NCBI RefSeq assembly: GCF_001278805.1
Contig: NZ_CP012602.1
Location: 3,693,501-3,757,500 of the forward strand
Length of the DNA stretch: 64,000 nucleotides
From: Bacillus sp. FJAT-18017
GTDB lineage: Bacteria; Bacillota; Bacilli; Bacillales; Cytobacillaceae
Reading direction: 5' to 3'
Part shown: piece after piece, positions 48,253 through 63,127 of the stretch
Layout of the letters: every line of letters starts with the position of its first letter
Numbering within the stretch: position 1 is the stretch's first letter
Made by a program: the position numbers and the translations under genes
The notes under the pieces: model-generated
Told to the model about the DNA's origin: nothing
Databases searched by the model: none
What the model saw: only the letters and a program-made list of their open reading frames with translations

Positions 48253-51200
48253 TTGAAGAAACTAGTTAAGAAACTTATGATAACTATGCTCGCATTACTG
48301 CTAGTCTTATCTACCCTACCCTATTCACAGCAATCAACTTCAGCAGCTGAAGCCGATCGTTGGAAAGAGCTAGGTGTTCAAAATGGAGGGTTTGAAGCAA
48401 AACCATCATCCGGAACAAATCTCCCTTCTTGGGTTTATTGGTCCGGAGGCCTTAAATCTGGAATGAGCATCTCCAATGAAGTCGTCTATGCAGGCAATCA
48501 GAGCTTGGCCGTGAATAATACCGGATCGATAGGATTATTTAGTCAGGAAATTGATGTCACCGAAGGAGGCCAATATAAATTAACTGCAAAGCTTCATGTT
48601 AAGGAGTTAACAGGCAAACCAGGAATCTGGCTGCGCTGGTACAATGACCAGGGAAAGAATTTTACAGACACTCCAAGATACTTTGATGTCCCAGCATTAA
48701 ATGAATGGCAAACGGTTGAAATCGAGGCAACTGCCCCAACAGGTGCCACCGGGCTAAAGGTCTTTATTTATCAGCCCACCACATCCAAGATGAAAGGTTA
48801 CTATGATGAAGTAAAGCTTTTTGAAAAAGAATCAAGCGTCCTTGATTTTCCTTTCGAATTTGGAGAGCCAATCAACCATGGCCCTGCTGCTTTAGCGGCT
48901 AAATCCCAAGGAGTAGCAATTGGTGATGGCGAGCTTTACTACGCAACAAACGGTTCACCTGCCACCTTTTATGCCGCTGATGCTGTAACCGGTAAAAAAA
49001 TCTTTTCACAGGACCTGCCTGGAAGTGATGTAGTCTGGGCAATGGTCATCGGTACGGATGGCAATGTTTATTTCGCAGGTACTTATAACGGAATCTTGTA
49101 CCGCTATGTGGTAAAAGAAAAACGACTTGAACAGCTGGGGAAAAATCCTTCCGATAATTGGGTTTGGCAGCTGGAGGCCTCAAAAGACGGAAAGATTTAT
49201 GGTGCTACATATCCAAATGCAAAGGTGTTTGAGTATGATATCAACTCCTCCCAATTCAAAGACTTGGGCACTTTTTACGAAGGCCAGCAGTATGCCCGCG
49301 GGCTGGGGATTACCGATGAAAGCCTATATATTGGAACTGGCACTACTGCTTATTTAATGAAGATGGATTTACAATCTGGTGAAAGAACAGAAATCAAGAC
49401 GCCTATAACAGGAGTATCCACGCAAATATCAAATATTTGGGAGTATGGCAGCAATATCTTTATCGCCTATGGAACTTCCCTCGTTACTATTGATAAAACA
49501 ACTGGGGAAGAGAAAAATACAATGAATTGGCAGGATGAACATACGTTTGACGGGCTTATCTCCTCTCCTTCTCCATATGACGAAAATATCATCTATTATA
49601 TTAATAAAAACACACAGCAGCTGTGGACATATGATATGAGGACACATGATCAGGCAAAAGTGGAACCGACTGTCCAATTGCCTCCTACACCGGCGAAAGC
49701 AATCCGCTGGATTAAAGATGAAAGCGGCAAAGATGTACTGGCGATTTTACATCACCAGATCGAATATTCACTTTACGACCCGACAACAAATACTGTCAAG
49801 GTCAGCTATCCTGAAGTTGCCATGCAGGGATTATTAATGCAAAGCCTTGAAATTGGTGAAGACCAAAAGATTTATATGGGCGGATACCAGGGGTCATTTG
49901 GTGTTTTTGATACGGCTAGTGACAAGTATATCCTTCACGAACGAGATCCTCACCAGATCGAAGGGATTGGATTTCTAAACGGTGATGTATATCTGGGTAC
50001 CTATGGCGGCGCGAGAATTTTTAAATATGATCCAGAACTGCCGTTTCAGTATTCAGGTGGTGTAAAAGGCGATAACCCCGAGATGGTATATGATATCGGG
50101 GATGACCAGAGCAGGCCTTTCACTTTTACATCAGGTGATAACAAGCTCTTTGTGGGTACCATTTCCGATTATGGACGGTTAGGCGGAGCGTTAACAGTAT
50201 ATGACTCTGAAACAGGCAAATGGAACACGATTCGCAATATCATAGAAAACCAAAGCATCATTGGGCTGGCTTACCATAAGGGAACAGTGTTTGGCGGATC
50301 AACCACAGCTGGCGGTCTTGGCATTACTCCTACAGAGCCAAAAGCTAAAATGTTTGAATATAATGTTGAAACTGGTGCGCATGAAGTATTTGACCTTCGT
50401 TTTGAAGGATTAGACAAGCCTGAAATGATCGGAGAGCTTTCAGTCGGCCCAGATGGAAACCTTTGGGGTGTAGCGTGGGGACTCGACAAGGCTGGCACCT
50501 ATAACACAGTGGTCTTTGCCATGAATCCGGACAATAGAGAAATTGTGAAAAGTACACAGATTCATAAAGGAGTAAATAGAGGAAGCCAGTGGAGGCCGTT
50601 CTTCATTCGCTGGGATAAACAGGGCTACCTGTATACAACAGCAGCCCGGAAATTGACGGTCATCGACCCAGAAACAATGAAAAGCAAGGTTCTGGTTCCG
50701 GGTACGGTCCAATTAATGGACCTCGATGATGAAGGCAATATCTACTACACAGCCGACGAAAATTTATATCAGTTACCAGTTCCATTAGAAAAGGGTACCT
50801 TATCTATAAAAAATGAATCGATGCTGCAGGGCACCGAACAAGACGTTGATTTAACTGTAACGCTCGTAAATGGAAACACCATCAATTTAAAGGGAGCCGA
50901 CATTGAATGGTTCAATTCCAACCCGGCTGCCGCCGACTTGAATGATGGAAAAATCACAGCTGAAAATGCTGGAATGACAGAAGTATATGCAAAAGTTACT
51001 TATAACGGAGAAACCATCACAACCAATACAATCAAGGTAACAATCGAAGTAACAACAGATACACTCTCACAACAAATTTTAGGTCTTGAAGAAGCAGGAA
51101 CCATTCCCCATTCTTTGGCCAAACTATTGACCAATAAATTAGCACAGGCTGAGCACCATTTCCAAAAGGGAAGGACAGAACAAGCAGTAAAGCATCTCGA

Positions 51201-51300
51201 TGATTTCCGTAAACATTTGGAAAAAAGCAGTATTGAGCAATCGGTGAAAGAAACATTACTAGATAATCTTGATTCAATTGAGTCTGGATATCGGAATTAA
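48253..51300 (+). CDS. Secreted beta-propeller protein with carbohydrate-binding-like and FIMAH domains
   Basis: This protein of about 1015 residues starts at a TTG after AGGAGA. A signal peptide (LMITMLALLLVLSTLPYS, then SAAEA) marks it for export. Residues about 40-180 look like a jelly-roll carbohydrate-binding module (QNGGFEAKPSSG, GYYDEVKLFEKE). A long beta-propeller follows with repeated blades such as DGNVYFAGTYNGILYRY and DGKIYGATYPNAKVFEYD. A Big-like beta domain and a C-terminal FIMAH-type helical pair (AQAEHHFQKGRTEQAVKHL) close it. Its paralogue is at 60902. It may bind glycans at the cell surface, an inference from the modules and the neighbouring glycan locus. Confidence 0.85.
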   Translation: MKKLVKKLMITMLALLLVLSTLPYSQQSTSAAEADRWKELGVQNGGFEAKPSSGTNLPSWVYWSGGLKSGMSISNEVVYAGNQSLAVNNTGSIGLFSQEIDVTEGGQYKLTAKLHVKELTGKPGIWLRWYNDQGKNFTDTPRYFDVPALNEWQTVEIEATAPTGATGLKVFIYQPTTSKMKGYYDEVKLFEKESSVLDFPFEFGEPINHGPAALAAKSQGVAIGDGELYYATNGSPATFYAADAVTGKKIFSQDLPGSDVVWAMVIGTDGNVYFAGTYNGILYRYVVKEKRLEQLGKNPSDNWVWQLEASKDGKIYGATYPNAKVFEYDINSSQFKDLGTFYEGQQYARGLGITDESLYIGTGTTAYLMKMDLQSGERTEIKTPITGVSTQISNIWEYGSNIFIAYGTSLVTIDKTTGEEKNTMNWQDEHTFDGLISSPSPYDENIIYYINKNTQQLWTYDMRTHDQAKVEPTVQLPPTPAKAIRWIKDESGKDVLAILHHQIEYSLYDPTTNTVKVSYPEVAMQGLLMQSLEIGEDQKIYMGGYQGSFGVFDTASDKYILHERDPHQIEGIGFLNGDVYLGTYGGARIFKYDPELPFQYSGGVKGDNPEMVYDIGDDQSRPFTFTSGDNKLFVGTISDYGRLGGALTVYDSETGKWNTIRNIIENQSIIGLAYHKGTVFGGSTTAGGLGITPTEPKAKMFEYNVETGAHEVFDLRFEGLDKPEMIGELSVGPDGNLWGVAWGLDKAGTYNTVVFAMNPDNREIVKSTQIHKGVNRGSQWRPFFIRWDKQGYLYTTAARKLTVIDPETMKSKVLVPGTVQLMDLDDEGNIYYTADENLYQLPVPLEKGTLSIKNESMLQGTEQDVDLTVTLVNGNTINLKGADIEWFNSNPAAADLNDGKITAENAGMTEVYAKVTYNGETITTNTIKVTIEVTTDTLSQQILGLEEAGTIPHSLAKLLTNKLAQAEHHFQKGRTEQAVKHLDDFRKHLEKSSIEQSVKETLLDNLDSIESGYRN

Positions 51301-51485: not shown

Positions 51486-51668
51486 CTAAAATTTTAATTT
51501 GAATTCATTGATGAATTCATTATAATCAAGGTCAAGTAATTCGCAGCATCGCTTAACTTCTGCATAGAAATCCATGTCAGAAGTCACAGGGCGGTCGCGG
51601 TTTACGTAATAAAACTGGACAAGCTCAAATAATTCAGCTGCTACTTTGACTTTTTCAACTTTATCCAA
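51486..51668 (-). CDS. 60-residue hypothetical protein, last gene of the orotate-type operon
   Basis: The start is a TTG with AAGGGGG about 10 nt upstream, and only 14 bp separate it from the dihydroorotase-like gene. The protein (MDKVEKVKVAAELFELVQFYYV...) is acidic, helical and has a Cys pair (CC at about 41-42). I do not recognise it. Its position suggests co-transcription with the pathway genes. Confidence 0.6.
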   Translation of the reverse strand: MDKVEKVKVAAELFELVQFYYVNRDRPVTSDMDFYAEVKRCCELLDLDYNEFINEFKLKF

Positions 51669-51682
51669 ATGTTCCGTCCCCC

Positions 51683-53107
51683 TTATTTATTTCCACTGAA
51701 AACCTTTTCACTGTTAGCCTCTGGCACGACCATCTTTCCGATTGGCCCTGATACGATGTTCCCATCTTCCATGACGGTAACTCCCCTGACAATGGTCTGG
51801 ACGGGAACCCCCTTTATAGGGAACTGGTCAAATGCGGTAACCTTGCTTTTACTATGCAGGTTTTCTCTTTTAATGACCATTTCTTTCTCCATGTCTACGA
51901 TGGTGATATCTGCATCCGTTCCCACGTCCAGCGAGCCTTTTTGCGGATAGATACCAAACTGCCTGGCAGGGTTTCCGGATAATACCTCGCAAACCTGTTT
52001 TAAAGTAACTTTTCCTTCGCTGACAGCATTCAGCATGAGCGGGGCTAGGGTTTCAACACCACACATGCCAGCAGGAATTGACCATAAGTCACCGTCTTTT
52101 TCTTCCTCAGTATGGGGGGCATGGTCGGAACATACAATGCTGACCGTACCATCCTGGATACCGCTCCACAGTTCATCCTGATCCTTCTTATATTTTACGG
52201 GCGGATACACCTTCATTTGCGGGCCGACTTTTTCATAATCCTCATTGCTCAAAAACAGGAAATGAGGACATGTTTCCGATGTAATCGGATAGCCTTCCTT
52301 TTGTGCCTCACGAACGAGGCGTAAAGATTCTCCCGCGCTTACGTGTAGAATATGCAGGCGTGTTCCGAGCTCTTTTGCCATCGAAATCCCTGTTTGAACT
52401 GTCAATACTTCGGCAAGGTTCGGCCTGCCTTCAAGCAATGCTTCATAATCGCGCCTTCCTGATATCTCCACCTGCTGTGTCAGCCTTTGGATAAGTTCAT
52501 TGTTTTCAGCATGGATGGCAAGAATCTGGCCAGTTTTCTCAACTTCCTTGAAGATATCATATACCTCTCCATCGGGAAGCGGCGGAATCACACCTTTTTC
52601 CCCTTCTTTGTAGTTGTACATCAACTGATATGTCTCACTGTTGATCGCATAACCCCAGAAGAACTTAAAGCCGATGACGCCCGCTTCATGCAGGGGGACA
52701 ATGTCCTTTCTGTTCAAATCGCCAAGGCAAATCGCCCAAATTCCAAAATCCACATGGGCTTTTGCAGATAGATTTTCCTTCTGTTTGAGAAGGTTATCAA
52801 CATTATTGATTGGCGGATTCGTATTTGGCATTTCGAAAACCATCGTGACTCCGCCCGCGGCAGCCGCTCTCGTACTGTGATAAAAATCTTCCTTGTACTC
52901 AGCACCAGGGTCCCTTGAGTGGACATGTGTGTCAATGAAGCCTGGAAGTACATACTTTCCTTCGGCATCTGTCGTTTTGGCCGCTCCCCCCGCTAGTTCT
53001 GTTTCAGAAACAGCAGCAATCTTCCCGTCCTTAATATACAAATTCCCTTTGACAAATTCCGTTCCTGAATAAATGAAGCCATTTTTAATGATATGATCCC
53101 ACGCCAT
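51683..53107 (-). CDS. Dihydroorotase-like cyclic amidohydrolase, probably catabolic
   Basis: This 474-residue barrel enzyme opens or closes cyclic amides with two zinc ions. It shows FIDTHVHSRDPG (H61, H63, R65), GFKFFWGY (carboxylated K148), and VCSDHAPHTEEE with the catalytic Asp. Arg65 and the MPNT motif (Asn95) are the carboxylate-binding features of dihydroorotases; allantoinases and hydantoinases usually differ there. It overlaps the PyrD-like gene by 23 bp and lies with PyrK and a carbamoyl hydrolase. It probably hydrolyses dihydroorotate to N-carbamoyl-L-aspartate. Allantoinase or hydantoinase remains the alternative. Confidence 0.82.
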   Translation of the reverse strand: MAWDHIIKNGFIYSGTEFVKGNLYIKDGKIAAVSETELAGGAAKTTDAEGKYVLPGFIDTHVHSRDPGAEYKEDFYHSTRAAAAGGVTMVFEMPNTNPPINNVDNLLKQKENLSAKAHVDFGIWAICLGDLNRKDIVPLHEAGVIGFKFFWGYAINSETYQLMYNYKEGEKGVIPPLPDGEVYDIFKEVEKTGQILAIHAENNELIQRLTQQVEISGRRDYEALLEGRPNLAEVLTVQTGISMAKELGTRLHILHVSAGESLRLVREAQKEGYPITSETCPHFLFLSNEDYEKVGPQMKVYPPVKYKKDQDELWSGIQDGTVSIVCSDHAPHTEEEKDGDLWSIPAGMCGVETLAPLMLNAVSEGKVTLKQVCEVLSGNPARQFGIYPQKGSLDVGTDADITIVDMEKEMVIKRENLHSKSKVTAFDQFPIKGVPVQTIVRGVTVMEDGNIVSGPIGKMVVPEANSEKVFSGNK

Positions 53108-54020
53108 GCTTTTCGCTCCCTTCCACTTGGCCGATGATTTCTTTTAAACTATTAATGTCATACTTCTCCATATACTCATTTATTTCCTGCAAGATCGTCA
53201 GCATCACAGTCGGATTGATAAAATTGGCGGTGCCCACCTGTATTGCTGTTGCACCGGCCAGCATCATCTCAATTGCATCCTCCCCGTTCATGACACCGCC
53301 ACAGCCAATGATAGGCAGCCTGCAAACCTTGTAAACCTGATGTATCAACCGGACAACAAGCGGCTTGATTGCCGGGCCTGATATGCCGCCAATCATATTG
53401 CCTATTTTCGGCTTCCTTGTATGGACGTCAATTGCCATGGCAACAAACGTATTTGCAACAGTAAGGGCATCCGCCCCGCCTTCTTCAGCAGCCTTGGCGA
53501 TACGTCCAATATCGGTCACGTTCGGGGACAGCTTGGCAATGACAGGTTTGTCGGTCACCTGACGGACCGCTTTGACAAGCTCGTGGGTTATCGTTTCATC
53601 CATCCCGAAGGCAACCCCGTTATTTTTTAAATTGGGGCAGGAGATATTGAGTTCAAGTGCGGCTACTTCCTCCATGGCCGAAAGCGTACCACTCATTTCG
53701 GCAAATTCCTCAATGCTGTCGGCCGAGATGCTCGAAATCAGTGGACTTTTAAATTGCCCATAAAATGGGACCGCCACCTTTTGATAATAATCCAGCCCTT
53801 TGCTTTGAATGCCTATCGAATTAATCATTCCCCCGGTTGTTTCACAAATCCGTGGTGTCGGATTGCCTTTCCTCGGCGTTTTGGTTATGCTTTTCGGCAG
53901 CAGGGCGCCAAGCTGATTGAAATCAAGCACCCCTGCCATCTCTTCGCCAAAAGTTCCTGATGCCGGCATGATTGGATTTTTCAGCGTAAGGCTGCCAATT
54001 GAGACTTCCATATTCCTCAT
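53085..54020 (-). CDS. pyrD: PyrD-like class 1B dihydroorotate dehydrogenase, catalytic subunit
   Basis: This 311-residue FMN barrel has the class-1 active-site Cys in LELNISCPN (C128), INSIGIQSKGLD, AKLSPNVTDI, and GGISGPAIKPL, all as in Bacillus PyrD of the heterotetrameric NAD-linked type. The start is the ATG at 54020, which overlaps the PyrK stop as ATGA; the longer frame to 54065 would run deep into pyrK. It is placed outside any pyr biosynthetic operon and next to degradative genes, so it probably reduces orotate with NADH-derived electrons. The direction is inferred. Confidence 0.9.
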   Translation of the reverse strand: MRNMEVSIGSLTLKNPIMPASGTFGEEMAGVLDFNQLGALLPKSITKTPRKGNPTPRICETTGGMINSIGIQSKGLDYYQKVAVPFYGQFKSPLISSISADSIEEFAEMSGTLSAMEEVAALELNISCPNLKNNGVAFGMDETITHELVKAVRQVTDKPVIAKLSPNVTDIGRIAKAAEEGGADALTVANTFVAMAIDVHTRKPKIGNMIGGISGPAIKPLVVRLIHQVYKVCRLPIIGCGGVMNGEDAIEMMLAGATAIQVGTANFINPTVMLTILQEINEYMEKYDINSLKEIIGQVEGSEKHGVGSYH

Positions 54021-54805
54021 GAGAACACCACCTTTTTCAGTGGCAGTACCGGACCATCCTGGCAAAGGCGGATCGTCCGAATTTCATCGCCTTCTTTAAT
54101 ATCACAAACACAGGCAAAGCAAGCACCCATCGCACAGCCCATATTTTCTTCAAGAGCAATTTCCGAAAATAACATATATCGCTCAGCAAGCTCCCTCGTT
54201 AACAGGGCCAGCCTTTTGGAACCACAAGTATAAACAGCATCGATTTGCCGGGTACGAATGATTTCTTCGGCAAGCGTCCTCACGGCTGCCGGATCGCTGG
54301 AACCGTTCCCGTCATGAACAACAAACGTAATAACCCCAGCTTTATTAAGCTCTTTCTCTACTAAAATATCTTCCCGGGATCGGGCACTTAGAATTGAATA
54401 GCATGGAATCCCCGTTTCACCTGCCTTATAGGCAAGTGCTGAAAGAGTCGCAATCCCGACACCTCTTGCAATCAGCAGCAGGCCTTTGCTCCCGGCTCCG
54501 AGTGTAAACGTATTTCCGAGCGGCCCAAGAATGTCCAGGAGCTCGCCAGGTTTCCTCTCAGCCAATTTTTTCGTCCCCGCACCTTTAACCAAATAAAGAA
54601 ATTCCAATATGTTATCCCTGTTATTAATTCGGTAGATGCTAAATGGCCTCCTCAGCAGCGGAGAATAATCATCCGTTGTCCTTATATGAAAAAATTGTCC
54701 TGGTTTAACATCAGCTACTGTCCAGTCAGGAATTCTGATTTTCATATGGCAATAACGGCGGCTAACATAATCATTCGATAGTATTTCTGCCTTAGTAAGC
54801 TTCAT
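54017..54805 (-). CDS. pyrK: PyrK-like FAD/[2Fe-2S] electron-transfer subunit
   Basis: This 262-residue protein has RRPFSIY (FAD binding, 52-58) and a C-terminal cluster C224, C229, C232 and C248 (MGCAMGACFAC) for the [2Fe-2S] centre. It links NAD(H) to the FMN of PyrD. The usual GGxG pyridine-nucleotide loop reads RGVGIATL here, an odd substitution that could alter cofactor use. It overlaps the M20 gene by 4 nt and pyrD by ATGA. Confidence 0.9.
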   Translation of the reverse strand: MKLTKAEILSNDYVSRRYCHMKIRIPDWTVADVKPGQFFHIRTTDDYSPLLRRPFSIYRINNRDNILEFLYLVKGAGTKKLAERKPGELLDILGPLGNTFTLGAGSKGLLLIARGVGIATLSALAYKAGETGIPCYSILSARSREDILVEKELNKAGVITFVVHDGNGSSDPAAVRTLAEEIIRTRQIDAVYTCGSKRLALLTRELAERYMLFSEIALEENMGCAMGACFACVCDIKEGDEIRTIRLCQDGPVLPLKKVVFS

Positions 54806-56067
54806 AGCTGGCCTCCAACTTCAAGTGAAGAGGATGATACTTTTGCGTAACAGAGCACCGCTTCCTCAAGAACATCGATCCCAAGCATGATGTCATCAAA
54901 GTCAGTATGCTCATTCGGATGGTGGCTAAGACCATCAACTGATGGAATAAAAACAAGGCCAACCGGCCCGAAACCAGTCATGTTCATGGCATCATGCCCC
55001 GCTCCGCTTTGCATCAACCGATAAGGAAGCTGTTTTTCTTCACATATCTTTGCAAGTTCCCCGCATATTTCTTCAGACAAAAGGACAGGTTCCTCAAGAC
55101 TAATTTCTTTGCAATCTATACCAAGCTGCCTTTCCTTTTGTACCGTGGCCAGGGTTTCGTGTAAACGATCCAGCACCCGATGCCTGGACTCTAATGAGGA
55201 AGATCGGATATCAATTTTCATTTCGACTTCTCCCGGGATAACATTCATCGCTCCTGGATGGACAGCCAACACCCCGACTGTTGCAACAGTCCCAAAGTCT
55301 GCTTCCTTTTTTGCGGCCTTCTCCAGCTCAAGTGCGATTTCAGCAGCACCTAGAAGTGCATCTTGCCTCATATCCATTGGAGTCGTGCCCGAGTGAGAAG
55401 CTTTTCCCGAAATAGTCACAATAAATCTGGCTGGAGCAGCAATACCTGTTACAATCCCAATTTTCTTTTGTTCGGTTTCAAGGACAGGCCCCTGTTCTAT
55501 ATGCATTTCAAAGAATGCTTTAAAATTCTCCTTTTCCCTGTGTGCTTCATTGATGCTGTCAAAGTCAAGGGCGCAAAGGGAAAATGCTTTTTCAATTGTA
55601 ATCCCGTCACGGTCCTTTAGAGTCCGGTATTTGCCTTTGTCTATGCGGCCAGCCATTGCTTTGCTTCCGAGAGTCGCAACACCAAATCTCGCTGACTCCT
55701 CACAGGCGAACGAAATTAATTCAATCGGATGTTCAGTTGTGATTCCCCGGTCATTAAGCCGGTTGATGATTTCCAGTCCCGCCGCGACTCCGACAACGCC
55801 ATCATACTTGCCTCCGTCGTAAACCGAGTCTATATGGGAACCAATAACGACAGGCGGCAGTGTGTTATTTTTTCCATCCCTACGCGCAATCAGATTGCCG
55901 GCATTGTCCAATTTGACAGACATCCTTGCGTCCTTGCACATTCTCATCAAAGCATGTGTACAAGCCTGTTCTTCATTTGAATAGGCAATCCTGGTGATAC
56001 CCTTTTGCCCTGAATTATACTGGTTAATTTTCGCGAGCAGTGTTTCATATCGTTTCCGTTTATCCAT
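54802..56067 (-). CDS. M20-family Zn-dependent N-carbamoyl-amino-acid hydrolase (ureidosuccinase candidate)
   Basis: This 421-residue protein of the hydantoinase/carbamoylase (AmaB/AllC-like) group has metal-binding VIGSHIDSVYDGGKYDG (H78, D80, D89), FACEES (E124-E125), and the late GAGHDAMNM and LSHHPNEHTDF with the last His. Such enzymes split N-carbamoyl amino acids or allantoate into the amino acid, CO2 and ammonia. With dihydroorotase and PyrDK next door, N-carbamoyl-L-aspartate is the likely substrate, yielding aspartate. Allantoate amidohydrolase is the alternative. Confidence 0.87.
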   Translation of the reverse strand: MDKRKRYETLLAKINQYNSGQKGITRIAYSNEEQACTHALMRMCKDARMSVKLDNAGNLIARRDGKNNTLPPVVIGSHIDSVYDGGKYDGVVGVAAGLEIINRLNDRGITTEHPIELISFACEESARFGVATLGSKAMAGRIDKGKYRTLKDRDGITIEKAFSLCALDFDSINEAHREKENFKAFFEMHIEQGPVLETEQKKIGIVTGIAAPARFIVTISGKASHSGTTPMDMRQDALLGAAEIALELEKAAKKEADFGTVATVGVLAVHPGAMNVIPGEVEMKIDIRSSSLESRHRVLDRLHETLATVQKERQLGIDCKEISLEEPVLLSEEICGELAKICEEKQLPYRLMQSGAGHDAMNMTGFGPVGLVFIPSVDGLSHHPNEHTDFDDIMLGIDVLEEAVLCYAKVSSSSLEVGGQL

Positions 56068-56084
56068 AGGAGTGCCCTCCCTTA

Positions 56085-57392
56085 TTAGCCAGAGGCTATC
56101 GCAATATATCCTTTGCCACTTTCAATCTGTATCGTTGTACCAAACTCCGAAGAAAGCTCAGCAAGTTCATTCAAAATCCGTTCGCCATCCACTTCGTTTG
56201 CAAATGACGGCCTCCCTTTTCCAGCTCTGCTTTTTTCAAAACCAAGAGTGATGGGCAAGAGTTCTATCCCTGTAATTAAATCCTCTTCTATTGAAAAAGA
56301 AGCAATAACTGATTCAAACACCTTTCGATTGGCAGCAAGACCCCTCGTTCCTTTCTTGCTGCGGGCATCCATCCCGTCAGCCGTCGTATGGCGGGAATCA
56401 AGATCGTACAGCTGATAAAATTCAGCAGGCTGCTTTTCTACAGTATCATTTTGAAAAATAAAATCCCCCAAGCTGTAAAAAATCGGCCTGTTCCGATAAA
56501 TCTCTATTCCCCGCAAAATATGAGGCCCGTGACCGATGATAGCGTGAGCTCCTTCGTCTATGCAAAACCTGCTGAATTCCTTTAAAAAACCAGCCGGTTT
56601 ATCCTTATTGGTCCCTTTCATTTCATGGGCATGGAGACTGACAAACACGATATCCGCTTGCCTGGCTGCCTCCTTGATTGCCTTAGCAATCCTTTTCGCG
56701 TCTTCCTGGTCCATAAAGGTTTCGGTCCCCGGCTCACCTTCTTCAAAAAGAAGATTCCCAAATTGATAGGATCCGCTGTGGTCTTTCCAGAATCCTTCAC
56801 TAACATTCAAATTCCTTGCAGCATTCACATCAGTGCTGGCATCGATTTGTTTTAGATTCTGCATGGTTTCGCTGCTAATTCTGTGTACTTGTTTATGTCC
56901 GAGCGGATTCACACCCGGCCTTCCAGGTACATCTGGCCTCTGCTCCCCTGCCTTGTGCCATTGGTCAAAAGAAGATGTTACTGAAATCAGCGCAACCCTT
57001 CCGTTTTTTGTTTCGAGGTATTTTGGCTGCCCTGCTTCAGCCAAATTCCTTCCAATTCCTGCGAATACCCAATCATCTTTTTCAAGCGCCTGAATTGTTG
57101 AAAGCAATCCGCCGTGCAGCCAATCAAGACTATGGTTGTTAGCACAGGCCAGCAAATTGAACCCCAACCATTTGAGGTCTTTTAAAACGTTCGGCCTGGC
57201 TGCTGCCCACGTACCTCCGCTTGTTGCTGACGGTGCCTGGTCAAAATTGTGCAGTACGACTTCAAAATTCGTAAACCTGACGTGACAGTCCAAAAGAAAT
57301 TCCTTTATGTTGTTTAAATTTTCTTCGTCTCTCGGCAGCCTCTGGGTAATGAAGGAATCTCCCGTAACAGCTACTTTTATTGGTTCACTCAT
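56085..57392 (-). CDS. CapA-family metallophosphatase-like protein
   Basis: This 435-residue protein has the poly-gamma-glutamate-capsule (CapA/PGA_cap) fold: KVAVTGDSFITQRLP, ACANNHSLDWLHGG, IGHGPHILRGIEIYRNRPIFYSLGDF. It has no signal peptide, unlike many CapA relatives. It lies 17 bp before the M20 gene and 13 bp after iclR, so it is in the operon. Its role in pyrimidine or amide breakdown is unknown. Confidence 0.85.
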   Translation of the reverse strand: MSEPIKVAVTGDSFITQRLPRDEENLNNIKEFLLDCHVRFTNFEVVLHNFDQAPSATSGGTWAAARPNVLKDLKWLGFNLLACANNHSLDWLHGGLLSTIQALEKDDWVFAGIGRNLAEAGQPKYLETKNGRVALISVTSSFDQWHKAGEQRPDVPGRPGVNPLGHKQVHRISSETMQNLKQIDASTDVNAARNLNVSEGFWKDHSGSYQFGNLLFEEGEPGTETFMDQEDAKRIAKAIKEAARQADIVFVSLHAHEMKGTNKDKPAGFLKEFSRFCIDEGAHAIIGHGPHILRGIEIYRNRPIFYSLGDFIFQNDTVEKQPAEFYQLYDLDSRHTTADGMDARSKKGTRGLAANRKVFESVIASFSIEEDLITGIELLPITLGFEKSRAGKGRPSFANEVDGERILNELAELSSEFGTTIQIESGKGYIAIASG

Positions 57393-57405
57393 TTTCTTAC
57401 TCCTT

Positions 57406-58179
57406 TTACAGTTTGATGGAGGTAAGCAAATGCATGGATTTTAAATGCTCACTTGCTTTTTGCGATACAGCTTTTAATTCTCGGATGATGGCATCCTCTT
57501 CCTGTTCTATATAGATGTTCTCTCCCACAACACTAATGCTCAACGATGTTTCCCTGTCTTCATGGAAAATAGGGACAGAAATCGCAGAAACGCCAACTTC
57601 CAACTCCTGCAGACAGAAAGCCACCCCTTGATCAAGGACCCTGCTTAGCTCATGTTTCAATGCTCCAATATCCGTCAATGTATGAGGAGTAATTGGCCTA
57701 ATCGATTCCTTCGCAAGGCAGGAATCGATGATGTTTTGTTCTTTATAGGCCAGAATCGCTTTTGAAGCTGCAGTGCAATAAAAGGGCATCCGCTGGCCAA
57801 CATGCACGAAAAACTTATTGCGCAAATCGGAAGGCTGGTGCGTATGGATACAATAGACCTGATCACCCTGGAATCTGCTTAAGTACGAATATAGGCCAGT
57901 TGCTCTAGAAACTTCCTCGCAATACTGCCCCATCAAACCAATGGGATCCTGTGAACGCAGGAAACGGCTTCCCCAAAACATCGCCTTAGGACCCATCATA
58001 TAGTTTTTCGTGTGAAAATTTTGCGTCACGAGTTGGTGCTGGACCATGCTGGAAAGCATCCGGTGGATTGTACTTTTGCTGAGATTGGTTTCTCTTGACA
58101 GATCGCTGATGCCTATTCCATCAATCGGGTGTTCACTTATGCAATCCATAACCTCCGTAAAACGTTTTAACCACTCCAT
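57406..58179 (-). CDS. IclR-family transcriptional regulator
   Basis: This 257-residue protein has an N-terminal winged helix (GIGISDLSRETNLSKSTIHRMLSSM) and a C-terminal effector domain with the family pattern GQRMPFYCTAASKAILA. It probably senses a pathway compound and controls the operon. A conserved 30-bp site lies just upstream of it and again before the MFS gene. Confidence 0.93.
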   Translation of the reverse strand: MEWLKRFTEVMDCISEHPIDGIGISDLSRETNLSKSTIHRMLSSMVQHQLVTQNFHTKNYMMGPKAMFWGSRFLRSQDPIGLMGQYCEEVSRATGLYSYLSRFQGDQVYCIHTHQPSDLRNKFFVHVGQRMPFYCTAASKAILAYKEQNIIDSCLAKESIRPITPHTLTDIGALKHELSRVLDQGVAFCLQELEVGVSAISVPIFHEDRETSLSISVVGENIYIEQEEDAIIRELKAVSQKASEHLKSMHLLTSIKL

Positions 58180-58207
58180 TATTCGTCTTCCTTTGTTCTG
58201 TAGTATC

Positions 58208-58237
58208 GTTCTGTTGTGCGGGACAACGTTCCATTTT
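58208..58237. promoter_or_regulatory. Candidate IclR operator, copy 1
   Basis: GTTCTG... then GGACAACGTTCCATTTT lies 29 bp before iclR. It matches the site at 59573 at most positions; the core GGRACAACRTTCC is palindrome-like (GGAA-N5-TTCC), as in other IclR-family operators. Confidence 0.65.
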
Positions 58238-58250
58238 TAAAAGAAGAATT

Positions 58251-58277
58251 TTCCCTGTCCTGATTTCAGACAGGGAA
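58251..58277 (-). terminator. Terminator after the MFS gene
   Basis: TTCCCTGTC and GACAGGGAA pair around 9 nt, 8 bp after the MFS stop. On the minus strand AATTCTTCTTTT follows. It would limit read-through from the transporter gene into iclR, which has its own operator. Confidence 0.8.
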
Positions 58278-58285
58278 GGCCGTTA

Positions 58286-59521
58286 TTAAGTAAGTTCCTT
58301 TCCTCTTGTTTCCGGAATTAAAAATATAAATGCGAGTGCAGATAAAACATAGATTCCCGAAATTAGACTAAGGGCATAGCTTAATGAATGATTCAAAGAG
58401 ATATATCCGATAATGAATGGTGCAAAGCCCGCCACAGCTCTGCCGATATTAAAGATGATATTCTCAGCTGACGATCTGGCTTCGGTCGGATAATGTTCAG
58501 CAAGCAAGGCACCAAAACCGCCCATCATTCCATTTACGAAAAATCCAAGGATTCCGCCAAGTGCCAAGAGGACAGCCATTGACGATTGCTGGAAATAAAT
58601 CCAGACAATGATTGCCGAAGCCACCAGGAATATCAGATACGAAGGCCTGCGGCCAATTCTGTCAGCCAAGTAGCCGAACACCATTATTCCAATGATCATT
58701 CCCGTAATCGTAATAACCGTCCACCATGTGGTTTTGTTGAACGTTACACCCATTTCAGTTGCGAGCATGGTAGGCATCCAGGTCATAATTCCATAAAAAC
58801 CGAAGTTTTGGACACTGGTAGCAACGATTAAGCCGAGAGTAATTTTTGTTGTTTTGGCTGATGAAAACAAATGTCCGACGGAAACATTATTTTTGTTTTC
58901 ATTTTTCATTTTTGTCCAAACTTCCGGTTCTTCGAGGTTACGGCGGGACCAGAATGCCAGGATTGCCGGGAGCACTCCTGCCACAAATACTCCCTGCCAG
59001 CCGAATTTAGGGGAAATGAAAAGGACAGCCAATGTTGCAAGGACGATACCAAACTGGAACCCGGTTGCAACAACTGCCGTAGCCCTGGCTCGATACTTCT
59101 TGTGCCATGCTTCACTGACAAGAGTCATTCCGATCCCGAACTCACCGCCGAGTCCAAGTCCGGCAAGGAACCTGAAAACAGCCAATGTTTCAAGATTTGG
59201 GGACAGAGCACATAAGCCGGTGAACACTGAAAAAATTAAAATAGTCCAGGTAAACACGCGGACGCGTCCATATTTATCTGCTAAGATACCAAAGACAATT
59301 CCGCCAAGCACAGAACCAAGCAGTGTGATCGTAGAAACACTGCCCGCCTGTGCAGCATTGATTCCAAAATAAGCAATAATAAGCGGCATCGTGAATGCAA
59401 GTATCATCATATCCAGACCATCCATTGCATAACCAATCGTCGAAGCCCAGAGCGTTTTCCACTGATAGCCAGTAATCTTACCCGGTTCAGTTTCAATATT
59501 CTTTTGAACAGCTGTCTCCAT
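58286..59521 (-). CDS. MFS transporter, aromatic-acid:H+ symporter type
   Basis: This 411-residue protein has 12 helices. The first helix carries GYAMDGLDMMILAF, the DGxD motif of the AAHS group that imports aromatic acids. LADKYGRVRVFTW is the motif-A loop. It is the first gene of the operon and has its own copy of the putative IclR site. Orotate, a planar heteroaromatic carboxylate, fits this transporter type and the following genes, but that is inferred. Confidence 0.9.
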   Translation of the reverse strand: METAVQKNIETEPGKITGYQWKTLWASTIGYAMDGLDMMILAFTMPLIIAYFGINAAQAGSVSTITLLGSVLGGIVFGILADKYGRVRVFTWTILIFSVFTGLCALSPNLETLAVFRFLAGLGLGGEFGIGMTLVSEAWHKKYRARATAVVATGFQFGIVLATLAVLFISPKFGWQGVFVAGVLPAILAFWSRRNLEEPEVWTKMKNENKNNVSVGHLFSSAKTTKITLGLIVATSVQNFGFYGIMTWMPTMLATEMGVTFNKTTWWTVITITGMIIGIMVFGYLADRIGRRPSYLIFLVASAIIVWIYFQQSSMAVLLALGGILGFFVNGMMGGFGALLAEHYPTEARSSAENIIFNIGRAVAGFAPFIIGYISLNHSLSYALSLISGIYVLSALAFIFLIPETRGKELT

Positions 59522-59572
59522 GATTTACCCCCTTGATTCATCCCTTCCAGATAGGAAAGTGAAATTTTCTTT

Positions 59573-59602
59573 GTTCCGGTGAACGGAACAACATTCCATT
59601 TT
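59573..59602 (-). promoter_or_regulatory. Candidate IclR operator, copy 2
   Basis: GTTCCGGTGAAC is a palindrome and is followed by GGAACAACATTCCATTTTA. It matches the site at 58208 and lies 52 bp before the MFS transporter gene. Confidence 0.68.
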
Positions 59603-59810
59603 ATAGCAATACTTAGGTAATGTTCGCGGTGTTGCCGGGTGTGTTGCAAAGCTTTTCCAGAGGCCGAAGGTGACGGGTTAAGTGCCTATGAATGTTTGGA
59701 GGCAATATAATTTAAGTTGTTCATATCTCCTTTTTAATCATATTCCCTCGAGCATTACAATTATGATTATTATAAATTTTCAAAATATTTTAGGCAAGTC
59801 CAATTTATAA

Positions 59811-60554
59811 TTAATCAAAATTAAAGCCCTGTTTTTTTATAAAATTCTTTAAATGTACACGCCGTGGTTTACTTAAGTATTCAGCCATTTGTTTCGTCCA
59901 CCCATCGGTGCGTAAACCATTTGTTCTTCTTGTGTAGTATTCAGACGAAATTTCTTCATAAGTGGCCAACCCTTCGAGAATATCTTCCTTCGGCTTATAG
60001 TGGTTATAATGAACAACCGCTCCTTTGGGAGTCCTTGGCTTTTGCCACGGTTCCTGGTCAGGGTAACCTAGGCACATCCCCATCATGGGAATAGTATATG
60101 GCGGAAGCCCTAACAGATTTTTTACCTCATCAGGATTATTGCGAATTCCCCCTATCATCACACCACCCAAACCGTAAGCCTTTGCAGCAATAAAGGTATT
60201 TTCGGCAGCAAGCGCAGTGTCAACCGCTGCGACCAATACGTTTTCAACCTCATTTATTTCAAATTTTGTATCCCACATTTCACACGTTAGGCTGAGACGA
60301 TAAAAGTCCGCGCAAAACACTAAAAAAACAGGACAGGCCGCTACGTACTTTTGGTTCCCCGCTATTTCGGACAGTTTTTCCTTTTTATCCTGATCATCTA
60401 CAACAATAATACTGTATGCCTGTACATTATGGGATGACGGAGCCCATTGGGCACAAGCAAGAATTTCCGTAAGAACATCTTCAGGAATCGGATCAGGTTT
60501 ATATCTTCGGATGGATCGATGACTTTGGAGCAGATTTATCGTTTCATTTCGCAA
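59811..60554 (-). CDS. Nitroreductase-family flavoprotein (NfsA/FRP-like)
   Basis: This protein of about 247 residues has HRSIRRYKPDPIPEDVL, CAQWAPSSHNVQAYSIIVV and GVMIGGIRNNPDEVKNLLGLP, with MMGMCLGYPDQEP later. These are standard for FMN-dependent NAD(P)H nitro/flavin reductases with a C-terminal extension. The TTG at 60554 is preferred because AAAGGAG lies 8 nt upstream of it. It stands between the orotate-type operon and the second propeller gene, without clear ties to either. Confidence 0.88.
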   Translation of the reverse strand: MRNETINLLQSHRSIRRYKPDPIPEDVLTEILACAQWAPSSHNVQAYSIIVVDDQDKKEKLSEIAGNQKYVAACPVFLVFCADFYRLSLTCEMWDTKFEINEVENVLVAAVDTALAAENTFIAAKAYGLGGVMIGGIRNNPDEVKNLLGLPPYTIPMMGMCLGYPDQEPWQKPRTPKGAVVHYNHYKPKEDILEGLATYEEISSEYYTRRTNGLRTDGWTKQMAEYLSKPRRVHLKNFIKKQGFNFD

Positions 60555-60901: not shown

Positions 60902-63127
60902 TTAAATAGAGTTGAGAATACGCCGTAATTGTTCACGCAACTCTGTATCTATATCCGATTCTTTGGCATTTTCCAAGTGTTTTAAGGCATCCTGTAAATG
61001 TTTGCTTGCTTCCTCCTGCCTTCCCATATCACGATGATGGATGGCTGAATTAAGTGAATTGATTAGCTGCTGACTGACTGAATTTGCGATATTGCCATAA
61101 ACCGTTTCCCGTTCCACAAACTTGAAACCTGACTCTAGCGTGTCGGATACTTCAATTTTCATTAAATCTACTTTATTGACGTAATAGATATTTCCATCGT
61201 TGCCGATTGTCATTAGCTCAGTCACAGTGTTGGTCAACACCTCATGTTCCAGCGTAACAGGGTCAATTTCCGTTAAGTTACCAGCAAGATTTGTGTACAT
61301 AAGACCATCCTCACTCCAGCGAATATGGATTGGTCTCCATCTTCCGTAATCCTTTACTTCAGGGAAGATGTTTTTGCTTTTCACAATTTCAAGCGTATCC
61401 GGATCCATTGCAAAAATTGCTCCGGCTGCTGCTGACCAAAGCAAACCGTCAGGACCAAGGCTCATCCCGCTAATCATTTTTGGCTGGACTGTGACACCTG
61501 GTATCTCCGGTACAAACTCAGTAATTTTCTCACCCTTTTCTATATCCCAAACGAATATCTTTGCAGCAGGCTCAGTTGGGTCAATTCCCAATCCACCCGC
61601 AACGGTTGTGGAGCCATATAGCTTGCCATTCACTTCTGCCAGCCCAGCGATGGCTTGATTATGGACAACATTTGGATATACAGCTGTGTCTTTTACATTG
61701 GCAGGATCCAGGACAGTTAAAGAGCCGCCAAGATACCCGTAGTCAGGAATTGTACCAATGAATAATTTATTTTGTGCAGCAGTCATAATAAATGGGCGGT
61801 CCTGATGAGGAATATCGTAAATCTGTTTAGGCGTTGAAGCTGGATTCGTAGTATCCATTTCAAAAATGGTAGCGCCAGTATAAACACCAAAATACATCTT
61901 ATCACCAAGAGCTGCCATACCTTCTGCCTGCCCTAACGTGAAATTGCGGTTTACATTTGTTTCCGGATTATAAACGGCACCTTTACCACCAGGGTAGCCA
62001 CTTAAATATAAATTGCCTTCAGGCCCTTTTTCCAATGTTTGAATTGGAATAGGATTTCCGACAATCGGCAGTTGAGTTGTTTTTACTTTTTTAGTTTGCA
62101 AGTTCATATACGTGACTTGGCCGCCGAATTGGACAGTAACTAAAGATTTGCCCGGCAAGTCTGGATCATTCTCTACTTCAACCCAAGCTGTATTCCGTAA
62201 GAAAGTTCCGAACACGACTTTAGTATCGGTCGCGCTTAACGTATTCAAATCCACTTCCATTAATTTACTGCCTTGCAGGAAGTATACTTTGTTACTTCCA
62301 GGCAAGCCATGTATTAATCGAATCCCTTTACTGTTTGTGTAGTACTTGTCACTCCATTGGCCAGTTTCTGTATCATAAAACAGGAGGGTGTTACTTCCGC
62401 CGCCAACTCCTGCGACGATATATTTGCCTGCCGCATCCATTTGCCAAACACTGCTGCCAGGAACAACATGGTCAGGAACCTTAATTTTTTCATATTCGCC
62501 CGTTTCTACATCCAATTTCACGATTGCATTCTCAACGCCAATGCCCAAATACAAGTACCCATTATGGTATGCTGTGGATCTGGAATAGCTTTGGCCTGGG
62601 GCAATACTGCCATAATCCTTCATTTCGCCTGTTTTTGGGTCATAGCGGCCAGCTTTTGCATTTGGATATGAGCCAAAATAGACACGTCCTTCTTCATCAT
62701 AGGACAAGCCGTAGACAACACTCTCACCGATTCCCCCTAGGTTCTTTACTTCCTTCGTTACAGGAGAATATTCATAAAGATATCCATTGCCTCCGATATA
62801 GACGTTGCCATTCGGTACCGTGATATGTGTCCAAACAGCCCCTGTTCCTTCTAAAGGATAAGTTCTTAGGACTTCCTGGCTTTTAAGGTCTACAACCTGA
62901 AAGATAGCCGGGCTGCCGCTTGAAGTTGTGTACATTATATCCCGTCCATCTTCAACCCCGTATGTAGAGTCATATACCGCTACACTTTGAATAAGTGAAC
63001 CTAGATTCGTTGGTTCTGAATTTCTCTTTCCTGATTCTGCATGGGCGGGATTACCCATAAAGAAAGAAGAAACAATTAACACAAATGTAGTTAAAAGAAT
63101 TGCGAACTGTTTTGAAAACGCCTTCAT
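60902..63127 (-). CDS. Secreted beta-propeller protein with FIMAH-like tail
   Basis: This 741-residue protein has a signal peptide MKAFSKQFAILLTTFVLIVS with a cleavage site at AHA-ES (about 30). The body is a beta-propeller of repeated blades, for example EGRVYFGSYPNAKAGRYDPK and NKLFIGTIPDYGYLGGSLTV. The end (SLNSAIHHRDMGRQEEASKH) is a FIMAH-like helical pair. It is a paralogue of the protein at 48253; both contain GGSLTV/GGALTV and GGLGI-PTEP. It lacks that protein's carbohydrate-binding and Big-like modules. Extracellular; ligand unknown. Confidence 0.87.
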   Translation of the reverse strand: MKAFSKQFAILLTTFVLIVSSFFMGNPAHAESGKRNSEPTNLGSLIQSVAVYDSTYGVEDGRDIMYTTSSGSPAIFQVVDLKSQEVLRTYPLEGTGAVWTHITVPNGNVYIGGNGYLYEYSPVTKEVKNLGGIGESVVYGLSYDEEGRVYFGSYPNAKAGRYDPKTGEMKDYGSIAPGQSYSRSTAYHNGYLYLGIGVENAIVKLDVETGEYEKIKVPDHVVPGSSVWQMDAAGKYIVAGVGGGSNTLLFYDTETGQWSDKYYTNSKGIRLIHGLPGSNKVYFLQGSKLMEVDLNTLSATDTKVVFGTFLRNTAWVEVENDPDLPGKSLVTVQFGGQVTYMNLQTKKVKTTQLPIVGNPIPIQTLEKGPEGNLYLSGYPGGKGAVYNPETNVNRNFTLGQAEGMAALGDKMYFGVYTGATIFEMDTTNPASTPKQIYDIPHQDRPFIMTAAQNKLFIGTIPDYGYLGGSLTVLDPANVKDTAVYPNVVHNQAIAGLAEVNGKLYGSTTVAGGLGIDPTEPAAKIFVWDIEKGEKITEFVPEIPGVTVQPKMISGMSLGPDGLLWSAAAGAIFAMDPDTLEIVKSKNIFPEVKDYGRWRPIHIRWSEDGLMYTNLAGNLTEIDPVTLEHEVLTNTVTELMTIGNDGNIYYVNKVDLMKIEVSDTLESGFKFVERETVYGNIANSVSQQLINSLNSAIHHRDMGRQEEASKHLQDALKHLENAKESDIDTELREQLRRILNSI

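Follow-up and report, generated by a model that had tools for sequence, protein, structure and literature searches.

A probable IclR-regulated operon for the reductive degradation of orotate in Bacillus sp. FJAT-18017

We report that a 64,000-nucleotide stretch of the Bacillus sp. FJAT-18017 genome (GCF_001278805.1, contig NZ_CP012602.1, positions 3,693,501 to 3,757,500; the whole stretch is referred to as the window), which is part of one 5,265,381-base contig, carries eight genes that most probably constitute a regulated catabolic operon for orotate, using the reductive route to aspartate. The enzymology of orotate breakdown dates from the 1950s, and the reductive route of Clostridium (Zymobacterium) oroticum runs from orotate via dihydroorotate and N-carbamoyl-aspartate to aspartate. 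In the literature surveyed, mostly at the level of titles and abstracts, no gene set for orotate degradation was described and no genes for ureidosuccinase or for the C. oroticum pathway were found. The operon is conserved and transporter-linked and, while its chemistry is known, its gene set is apparently undescribed and its accessory parts are new. Below we document the genes, their motifs, conservation and paralogy, and the operator copies.

In the proposed pathway the major facilitator superfamily (MFS) protein would import orotate and PyrDK, a class 1B enzyme paralogous to the biosynthetic one and dedicated to this route, would reduce it with NADH to L-dihydroorotate. The amidohydrolase, here called DHOl, would then open the ring to give N-carbamoyl-L-aspartate, from which the M20 enzyme would take off the carbamoyl group to yield L-aspartate, CO2 and ammonia. 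The IclR protein would govern two promoters via a repeated operator. The remaining two, a CapA-like and a 60-residue protein, would be accessory, since operons without either exist.

Gene content and organisation

The eight open reading frames (ORFs) are located on the minus strand between positions 59521 and 51486, in the order given below. Families were assigned by Pfam and NCBIfam profile searches with the NCBIfam cut-offs applied, and these agree with the gene set and families named in the first-pass annotation of this DNA.

58286..59521, minus strand: MFS importer, nearest to the aromatic acid/H+ symporter family (profile search; TIGR00895 best but under cut-off)
57406..58179, minus strand: IclR-family regulator (profile search)
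56085..57392, minus strand: CapA-like protein, MslH-related (profiles, match to solved sequences, metal ligands and both His/Asp dyads kept)
54802..56067, minus strand: M20 carbamoylase, proposed N-carbamoyl-L-aspartate amidohydrolase (ureidosuccinase) (profiles, alignment, relatives)
54017..54805, minus strand: PyrK-like NAD(H)/FAD/[2Fe-2S] electron-transfer subunit (profiles, Cys alignment)
53085..54020, minus strand: class 1B dihydroorotate dehydrogenase PyrD, proposed orotate reductase (profiles, motifs, tree)
51683..53107, minus strand: cyclic amidohydrolase DHOl, proposed catabolic dihydroorotase (profiles, residues R65/N95/H332 and K148)
51486..51668, minus strand: 60-residue protein with a TTG start (conserved family, no Pfam/NCBIfam match)

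For pyrD we chose the ATG start; the longest frame opens at a TTG at 54065. The genes are as tightly packed as had been noted: every junction except that between the MFS gene and iclR (106 bp) is an overlap or a gap of at most 17 bp, with gaps of 13 bp (IclR-CapA), 17 bp (CapA-M20) and 14 bp (DHOl-60-residue protein) and overlaps of 4 bp (M20-PyrK), 4 bp (PyrK-PyrD) and 23 bp (PyrD-DHOl). No aspartate carbamoyltransferase (ATCase) was present among the ORFs of the block. Both flanks of the operon are occupied by large related proteins with C-terminal FIMAH domains (48259-51297, plus strand, and 60905-63127, minus strand), each of which matches the other one's counterpart in locus L048 at approximately 33%.

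Recurrence of the operon in relatives

The named loci of relatives, given by L numbers, represent the best 80 of 494 relatives in a scan of named genome contigs; none of the 80 is titled Clostridium (Faecalicatena) oroticum. A DHOl ORF is inside the cluster in 78 of these and two are without one; the counts use the 78. L048, L049, L053, L054 and L056 were omitted from the clustering as duplicates of named loci, and on short contigs (e.g. L058) the absence of a gene means little. The full trio of M20, PyrK and PyrD genes occurs in 34 of the 78 loci, and the contiguous order M20-PyrK-PyrD-DHOl is kept in 29; at an identity of at least 59%, 30 of 43 loci have all three. The block recurs in many genera, which is more than chance; Bacillus sp. 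EB01 and Niallia circulans NBRC 13626 are among the named genomes that carry it. Judging from their titles, the 34 full loci presumably belong to Bacillaceae, Planococcaceae, Sporolactobacillaceae, Brevibacillus, Alicyclobacillus and a few anaerobes. Among these 34, a CapA-like gene is found in 25, the 60-residue gene in 19 and a nitroreductase-like gene in 14; the transporter is of the TRAP type in 21 and of the MFS type in 12 (one locus has both and two have neither), and the regulator is of the PucR type in 29 and IclR alone in four.

Within the family, a DHOl match at E ≤ 1e-80 was obtained in 43 of 193 genomes, with an identity of at least 64% in 10 (including the genome studied here) and 36-39% in the rest. 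The nine other members at or above 64% carry M20 (9/9), PyrK and PyrD (8/9), the 60-residue gene (8/9), MFS and IclR (5/9) and the CapA-like gene (3/9).

Some neighbouring genes fit an entry of orotate and an exit of aspartate. Aspartase-type genes are present in six loci (L067, L070, L071, L076, L091 and L096); for the two copies scanned, that of L067 passes the aspA cut-off and that of L091 only the wider PRK12273. In Robertmurraya massiliosenegalensis (L077) the operon itself includes a gene for orotidine monophosphate (OMP) decarboxylase, and the loci L078, L089 and L097 contain one as well; those scanned (L077, L078 and L097) pass their cut-offs, and the L089 gene may belong to a pyr operon. 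In Lysinibacillus telephonicus an AroM-family protein is encoded directly after DHOl (L097:11414-12061).

ATCase-type genes lie beside DHOl in nine loci (L096, L099, L107, L113, L115, L117, L118, L120 and L123), accompanied by carbamate kinase in all except L113, L118 and L120, i.e. in six; the ATCase models were applied to L099 and L123. In L123:2723-11395, from a Chloroflexi bin, genes for an ABC importer (LIV-type in our own reading), PyrK, PyrD, ATCase, carbamate kinase and DHOl follow consecutively, and this row may be a phosphorolytic variant or biosynthetic. We do not claim an ATP-yielding phosphorolytic variant for such loci, given that L123 is without a second PyrD and that, according to the parts of PMC4016543 available to us, ATCase-like proteins beside carbamate kinase can be ureidoglycine carbamoyltransferases.

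A dedicated PyrD and PyrK pair, and separate pyr and allantoin genes

The search for a separate biosynthetic operon suggested by the first-pass annotation was positive: the genome has a pyr operon with its own pyrD, pyrK and pyrC, which we read as pyrR-pyrP-pyrB-pyrC-carA-carB-pyrK-pyrD-pyrF-pyrE. NCBIfam models support pyrF, pyrD, pyrK, carA, pyrC, pyrB and pyrR, and the pyrP position is held by an NCS2 symporter scoring just below the uracil-permease cut-off; pyrE and carB were named from place, length and sequence start only, pyrE being without a match at the strict threshold. Genome searches accordingly gave a second class 1B PyrD (398.6 bits vs 340.2 for the operonic PyrD) and a PyrC elsewhere (504.8 bits). 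An allantoin cluster at 704-722 kb encodes two AllB, an allantoate deiminase and a ureidoglycine aminohydrolase, and in this genome two AllB-type allantoinase genes are positioned side by side at L047:5282-8082. Hence, the window operon is not required for biosynthesis or for the use of allantoin.

The operonic PyrD scores over the cut-offs of NF005574 (382.8 vs 269) and TIGR01037 (340.5 vs 270) and does not reach that of the PreA model NF006183 (130 vs 335). Its Lys, Asn and Cys motifs, which we take to represent the substrate Lys/Asn and the catalytic Cys, are unchanged in 43/43 rows and in the own biosynthetic PyrD. PyrK has the Pfam DHODB Fe-S domain and an FAD motif, and its four cluster Cys are likewise present in 43/43 rows and in the own biosynthetic PyrK.

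Paralogues of PyrD were searched for in 32 operon genomes, comprising 28 of the 34 loci with M20, PyrK and PyrD plus four unnamed (L058, L064, L089, L098, L111 and L112 were left out). All 32 carry another PyrD: 30 have two class 1B enzymes, one at 372-420 bits and one at 319-354 bits, and the other two (Brevibacillus centrosporus and Alicyclobacillus mengziensis) have a quinone-type PyrD as the additional one. Of the omitted loci, L064 combines a class 1B with a quinone-type PyrD, L111 has two class 1B over the cut-off and L098 a single class 1B with no quinone-type; a quinone-type PyrD was sought in L089 and none was found. In a tree of 56 PyrD sequences, 35 operonic ones (35/43 of the cluster; some, for example L095, L102 and L123, from loci that lack M20) and 21 biosynthetic ones (20 of 30 further class 1B PyrD and that of the own genome) are split by one branch with a support of 97/97, present in 96% of 200 bootstrap trees. 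The L098 PyrD forms a long branch next to the biosynthetic side, a position that the tree program flags as unsure.

The amidohydrolase and the M20 carbamoylase

DHOl passes the dihydroorotase model TIGR00857 (349 vs cut-off 279) and does not reach that of allantoinase AllB, TIGR03178 (342.6 vs 357.85); it is also under the cut-offs of TIGR02033 (D-hydantoinase), both ErtD models and every dihydroorotase equivalog among the best 25 of 74 families. Its identity to the own PyrC is 32%, and it does not group with biosynthetic PyrC.

The first-pass annotation had pointed to the dihydroorotase Arg (HVHSR, R65), the Asn of MPNT (N95), the PyrD Cys and the four PyrK Cys, all of which are present. R65 and N95 occur jointly with H332 (DHAPH) in every row of the DHOl cluster but one, a fragment (87 of 88), and we take these three residues to bind the substrate carboxylate. 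K148, presumably at the position of the hydantoinase-type carboxylated Lys, is Lys in 83 rows; four PyrC-like second copies have Thr or Ser instead. The own PyrC keeps R, N and H and has Thr at 148, while in the own two AllB residue 65 is Ser or Asn and residue 332 is Cys or Ala, with N and K retained. In alignments to solved proteins, the dihydroorotases 3mpg and 4yiw have R, N and H as in DHOl, the L-hydantoinase 1gkr has Ile in place of R and N with H present, and in the allantoinase 3hm7 Asn replaces R and Ser replaces H. On sequence grounds the Arg is the clearest dihydroorotase mark in DHOl, and among the aligned solved proteins all three residues are common only to dihydroorotases. We propose that DHOl is a catabolic dihydroorotase that would interconvert dihydroorotate and carbamoyl-aspartate.

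The M20 protein scores over TIGR01879 (413 vs 204), within the M20 hydantoinase/carbamoylase family. At 15 positions, each at least 90% conserved in the M20 group (51 rows), the group differs from the own AllC; among these P212 and M361 are both Gln in AllC. From the operon context we propose that this enzyme is the ureidosuccinase, hydrolysing N-carbamoyl-L-aspartate.

Regulation

A 31-bp element is repeated ahead of the MFS gene and ahead of iclR.

59573..59603, no strand assigned: proposed operator before the MFS gene, core TGGAAY-N3-GTYCCG-N5-CRGAAC (repeat and genome search)
58208..58238, no strand assigned: proposed operator, second copy, before iclR (repeat and genome search)

The 26-bp core matches with zero mismatches at these two genome sites only, and one further genome site appears at three mismatches; that the two sites match perfectly is by construction, because the pattern was derived from both; the reversed control pattern gave two matches at up to three mismatches. 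Similar elements precede the MFS gene and iclR in L048, L049 and L052, and the MFS gene in L061, and it is the uniqueness together with these similar sequences that supports the operator. We infer that IclR binds it.

Accessory genes

Against solved sequences at E ≤ 0.001 the CapA-like protein gave three matches only, the best at E 5.7e-75. The matched codes (8GQ9, 8GQA, 8ITG, 8GQB and 8ITH) are structures of MslH, for which the accessible parts of PMC10406935 give four Ca(II) ligands, Glu44, Asn87, His259 and His261, and two catalytic dyads, His88/Asp91 and His295/Asp11. The counterparts in the CapA-like protein (D12, E44, N86, H87, D90, H254, H256 and H291) are kept in 28/28 rows; the cut-off of the MslH equivalog NF038314 is not reached (294 vs 700). 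The conserved residues are compatible with epimerase chemistry but do not prove it. One rather unlikely possibility is that the protein is an MslH-type metal-dependent epimerase acting on N-carbamoyl-aspartate, dihydroorotate or carboxymethylhydantoin, such that both hands reach an L-specific carbamoylase. If so, the orotate pathway would be stereochemically closed, genes would be assigned to ureidosuccinase and perhaps also to carboxymethylhydantoinase, and a metabolic role would fall to the CapA family's MslH-like branch.

The 60-residue protein has no match in Pfam or NCBIfam, and its predicted structure consists of three helices (pLDDT 90.7). Its gene was detected in 30 of 90 loci searched (several genomes counted twice), and its profile in 10 of 193 family genomes, nine of them DHOl genomes. 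Its position is variable: after DHOl, CapA or aspartase, or ahead of the transporter genes. A 60-residue gene stands alone, with no pathway gene matched within the 20 kb read, in genome G097 and at L147:8844-9041, and genome G182 has the operon without it. Our guess is a small regulator or subunit. The first-pass annotation had left the CapA-like and 60-residue proteins as unexplained parts; each turns out to be a conserved family rather than an accident.

One further candidate member lies upstream of the MFS gene.

59811..60545, minus strand: NfsA-like flavoprotein (nitroreductase-like), optional part (homologues inside operons of other genera)

Versions in 17 other loci share 47-61% identity with it, and L057 has a near twin. 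Homologues are found in many related operons, between DHOl and CapA or ahead of CapA; in L100, L101 and L110 the gene follows DHOl, and the gene before DHOl there is dCTP deaminase-like in our own reading. No copy of the operator was found in the 350 bp before the NfsA-like gene, and it is therefore counted as optional.

Evidence against the orotate reading and alternative explanations

Several observations weigh against an orotate operon. TIGR00857 is not a sharp model, since the own two AllB also pass it (288 and 282). PyrK is under every NCBIfam PyrK equivalog cut-off (best 170.8 vs 314). For the MFS protein, which had been called an aromatic-acid-type importer, TIGR00895 is indeed the best model, but the score is under the cut-off (320.9 vs 418.55). 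At least one of M20, PyrK and PyrD is missing in 44 of the 78 loci, some on short contigs, and DHOl consequently occurs in other contexts too. Xanthine dehydrogenase genes accompany the aspartase in L091 and L096, which may belong to purine breakdown. In the metagenome bins L098 and L123 the operonic PyrD is the sole one found, and may thus be biosynthetic there. Three further points, namely the closest solved relative of DHOl, the gene set of Mesobacillus harenae and the label of the M20 protein, bear on the alternatives below.

The alternative that survives best, although improbable, is that DHOl is chiefly a carboxymethylhydantoinase acting on L-5-carboxymethylhydantoin, the five-membered ring isomer of dihydroorotate, with PyrC handling dihydroorotate and the operon using several cyclic forms of N-carbamoyl-aspartate. 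Such an enzyme is known from Zymobacterium oroticum. Among solved proteins DHOl is nearest to an L-hydantoinase (302 bits vs 224 for the best dihydroorotase), with H332 in common, and L098 has DHOl and a PyrC-like protein within one cluster. In M. harenae (L067) M20, DHOl and aspartase genes plus the 60-residue gene occur without adjoining PyrK and PyrD; a single class 1B PyrD and no quinone-type PyrD was found in this species, so that orotate reduction is not a prerequisite for a role of DHOl and M20. That locus (L067:4367-13589) also encodes a TRAP importer, ornithine-cyclodeaminase-like and (own reading) maleate-isomerase-like proteins, an SDR protein and PucR. However, DHOl comes directly after PyrD, whose family product is dihydroorotate, in 29 of 78 loci, and it has the dihydroorotase Arg and Asn where 1gkr differs.

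Degradation of allantoin, hydantoin or ergothioneine-derived hydantoin-5-propionate is very improbable. The M20 protein passes NF006771, "allantoate amidohydrolase" (468 vs 399), and ErtE (400.5, cut-off 520) and ErtD (326, cut-off 650) are among the close models; the ErtD and ErtE models all fall short of their cut-offs, and PyrK-PyrD would be left without a role. We set allantoin/hydantoin use aside given the dedicated allantoin cluster elsewhere in the genome and residues 65 and 332, at which DHOl is unlike the own allantoinases. As far as sequence tells, neither refuting condition named in the first-pass annotation applies: the genome has a further pyr operon, the other cluster serves allantoin and DHOl has the dihydroorotase Arg/Asn/His. 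Slimmer still are the chances of a second, conditional branch of pyrimidine biosynthesis with DHOl and PyrDK running forwards, where the steps of PyrD, PyrK and dihydroorotase are reversible and L123 has ATCase and carbamate kinase alongside with no other PyrD found in the bin, but which we set aside since a separate pyr operon is present elsewhere, ATCase is not in the block, an importer and an IclR regulator are tied to it, and its carbamoylase would destroy carbamoyl-aspartate.

An operon for orotate degradation, as first proposed, is thus the reading that the sequence supports, and from it we infer the substrate, the reductive direction of flux and the enzyme activities.

Comparison with known systems

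The three steps are like those of the orotate route of C. oroticum; unlike that biochemistry, we describe a Bacillales operon that brings along an importer, a regulator and two accessory genes. The pyr biosynthesis operon has homologous PyrK, class 1B PyrD and PyrC enzymes and like intermediates, but the operonic PyrD is on a separate branch, a carbamoylase replaces ATCase and DHOl differs from PyrC. The reductive uracil pathway (PreA/PreT, dihydropyrimidinase, beta-ureidopropionase) follows a like logic, i.e. reduce, open and decarbamoylate, whereas the operonic PyrD is class 1B and not PreA. The allantoin pathway (AllB, AllC) has a homologous cyclic amidohydrolase and M20 enzyme, but in this genome AllB/AllC are separate, and DHOl differs at residues 65 and 332.

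In the portions of PMC4016543 that we could access, the X1 and X2 dehydrogenases are PyrD relatives outside class 1B, unlike the operonic PyrD; X1 is linked to purine catabolism genes and, as in the window operon, lies beside a hydantoinase and an M20 peptidase. The window operon is not described in those portions. The lasso peptide epimerase MslH, as far as PMC10406935 was available, is matched by the CapA-like protein over near its full length and in all eight metal/catalytic residues; unlike MslH, no lasso peptide setting was seen around the CapA-like gene.

Implications

For each step of orotate breakdown, the hydrolysis of carbamoyl-aspartate among them, the operon provides candidate genes, and it points to better names for proteins labelled "allantoate amidohydrolase" or "capsule synthesis protein". 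Since perfect copies of the operator are confined to this operon, IclR could be used as a sensor for orotate. Finally, PyrD and PyrK offer a clean example of a duplicated biosynthetic enzyme pair that is probably run backwards.

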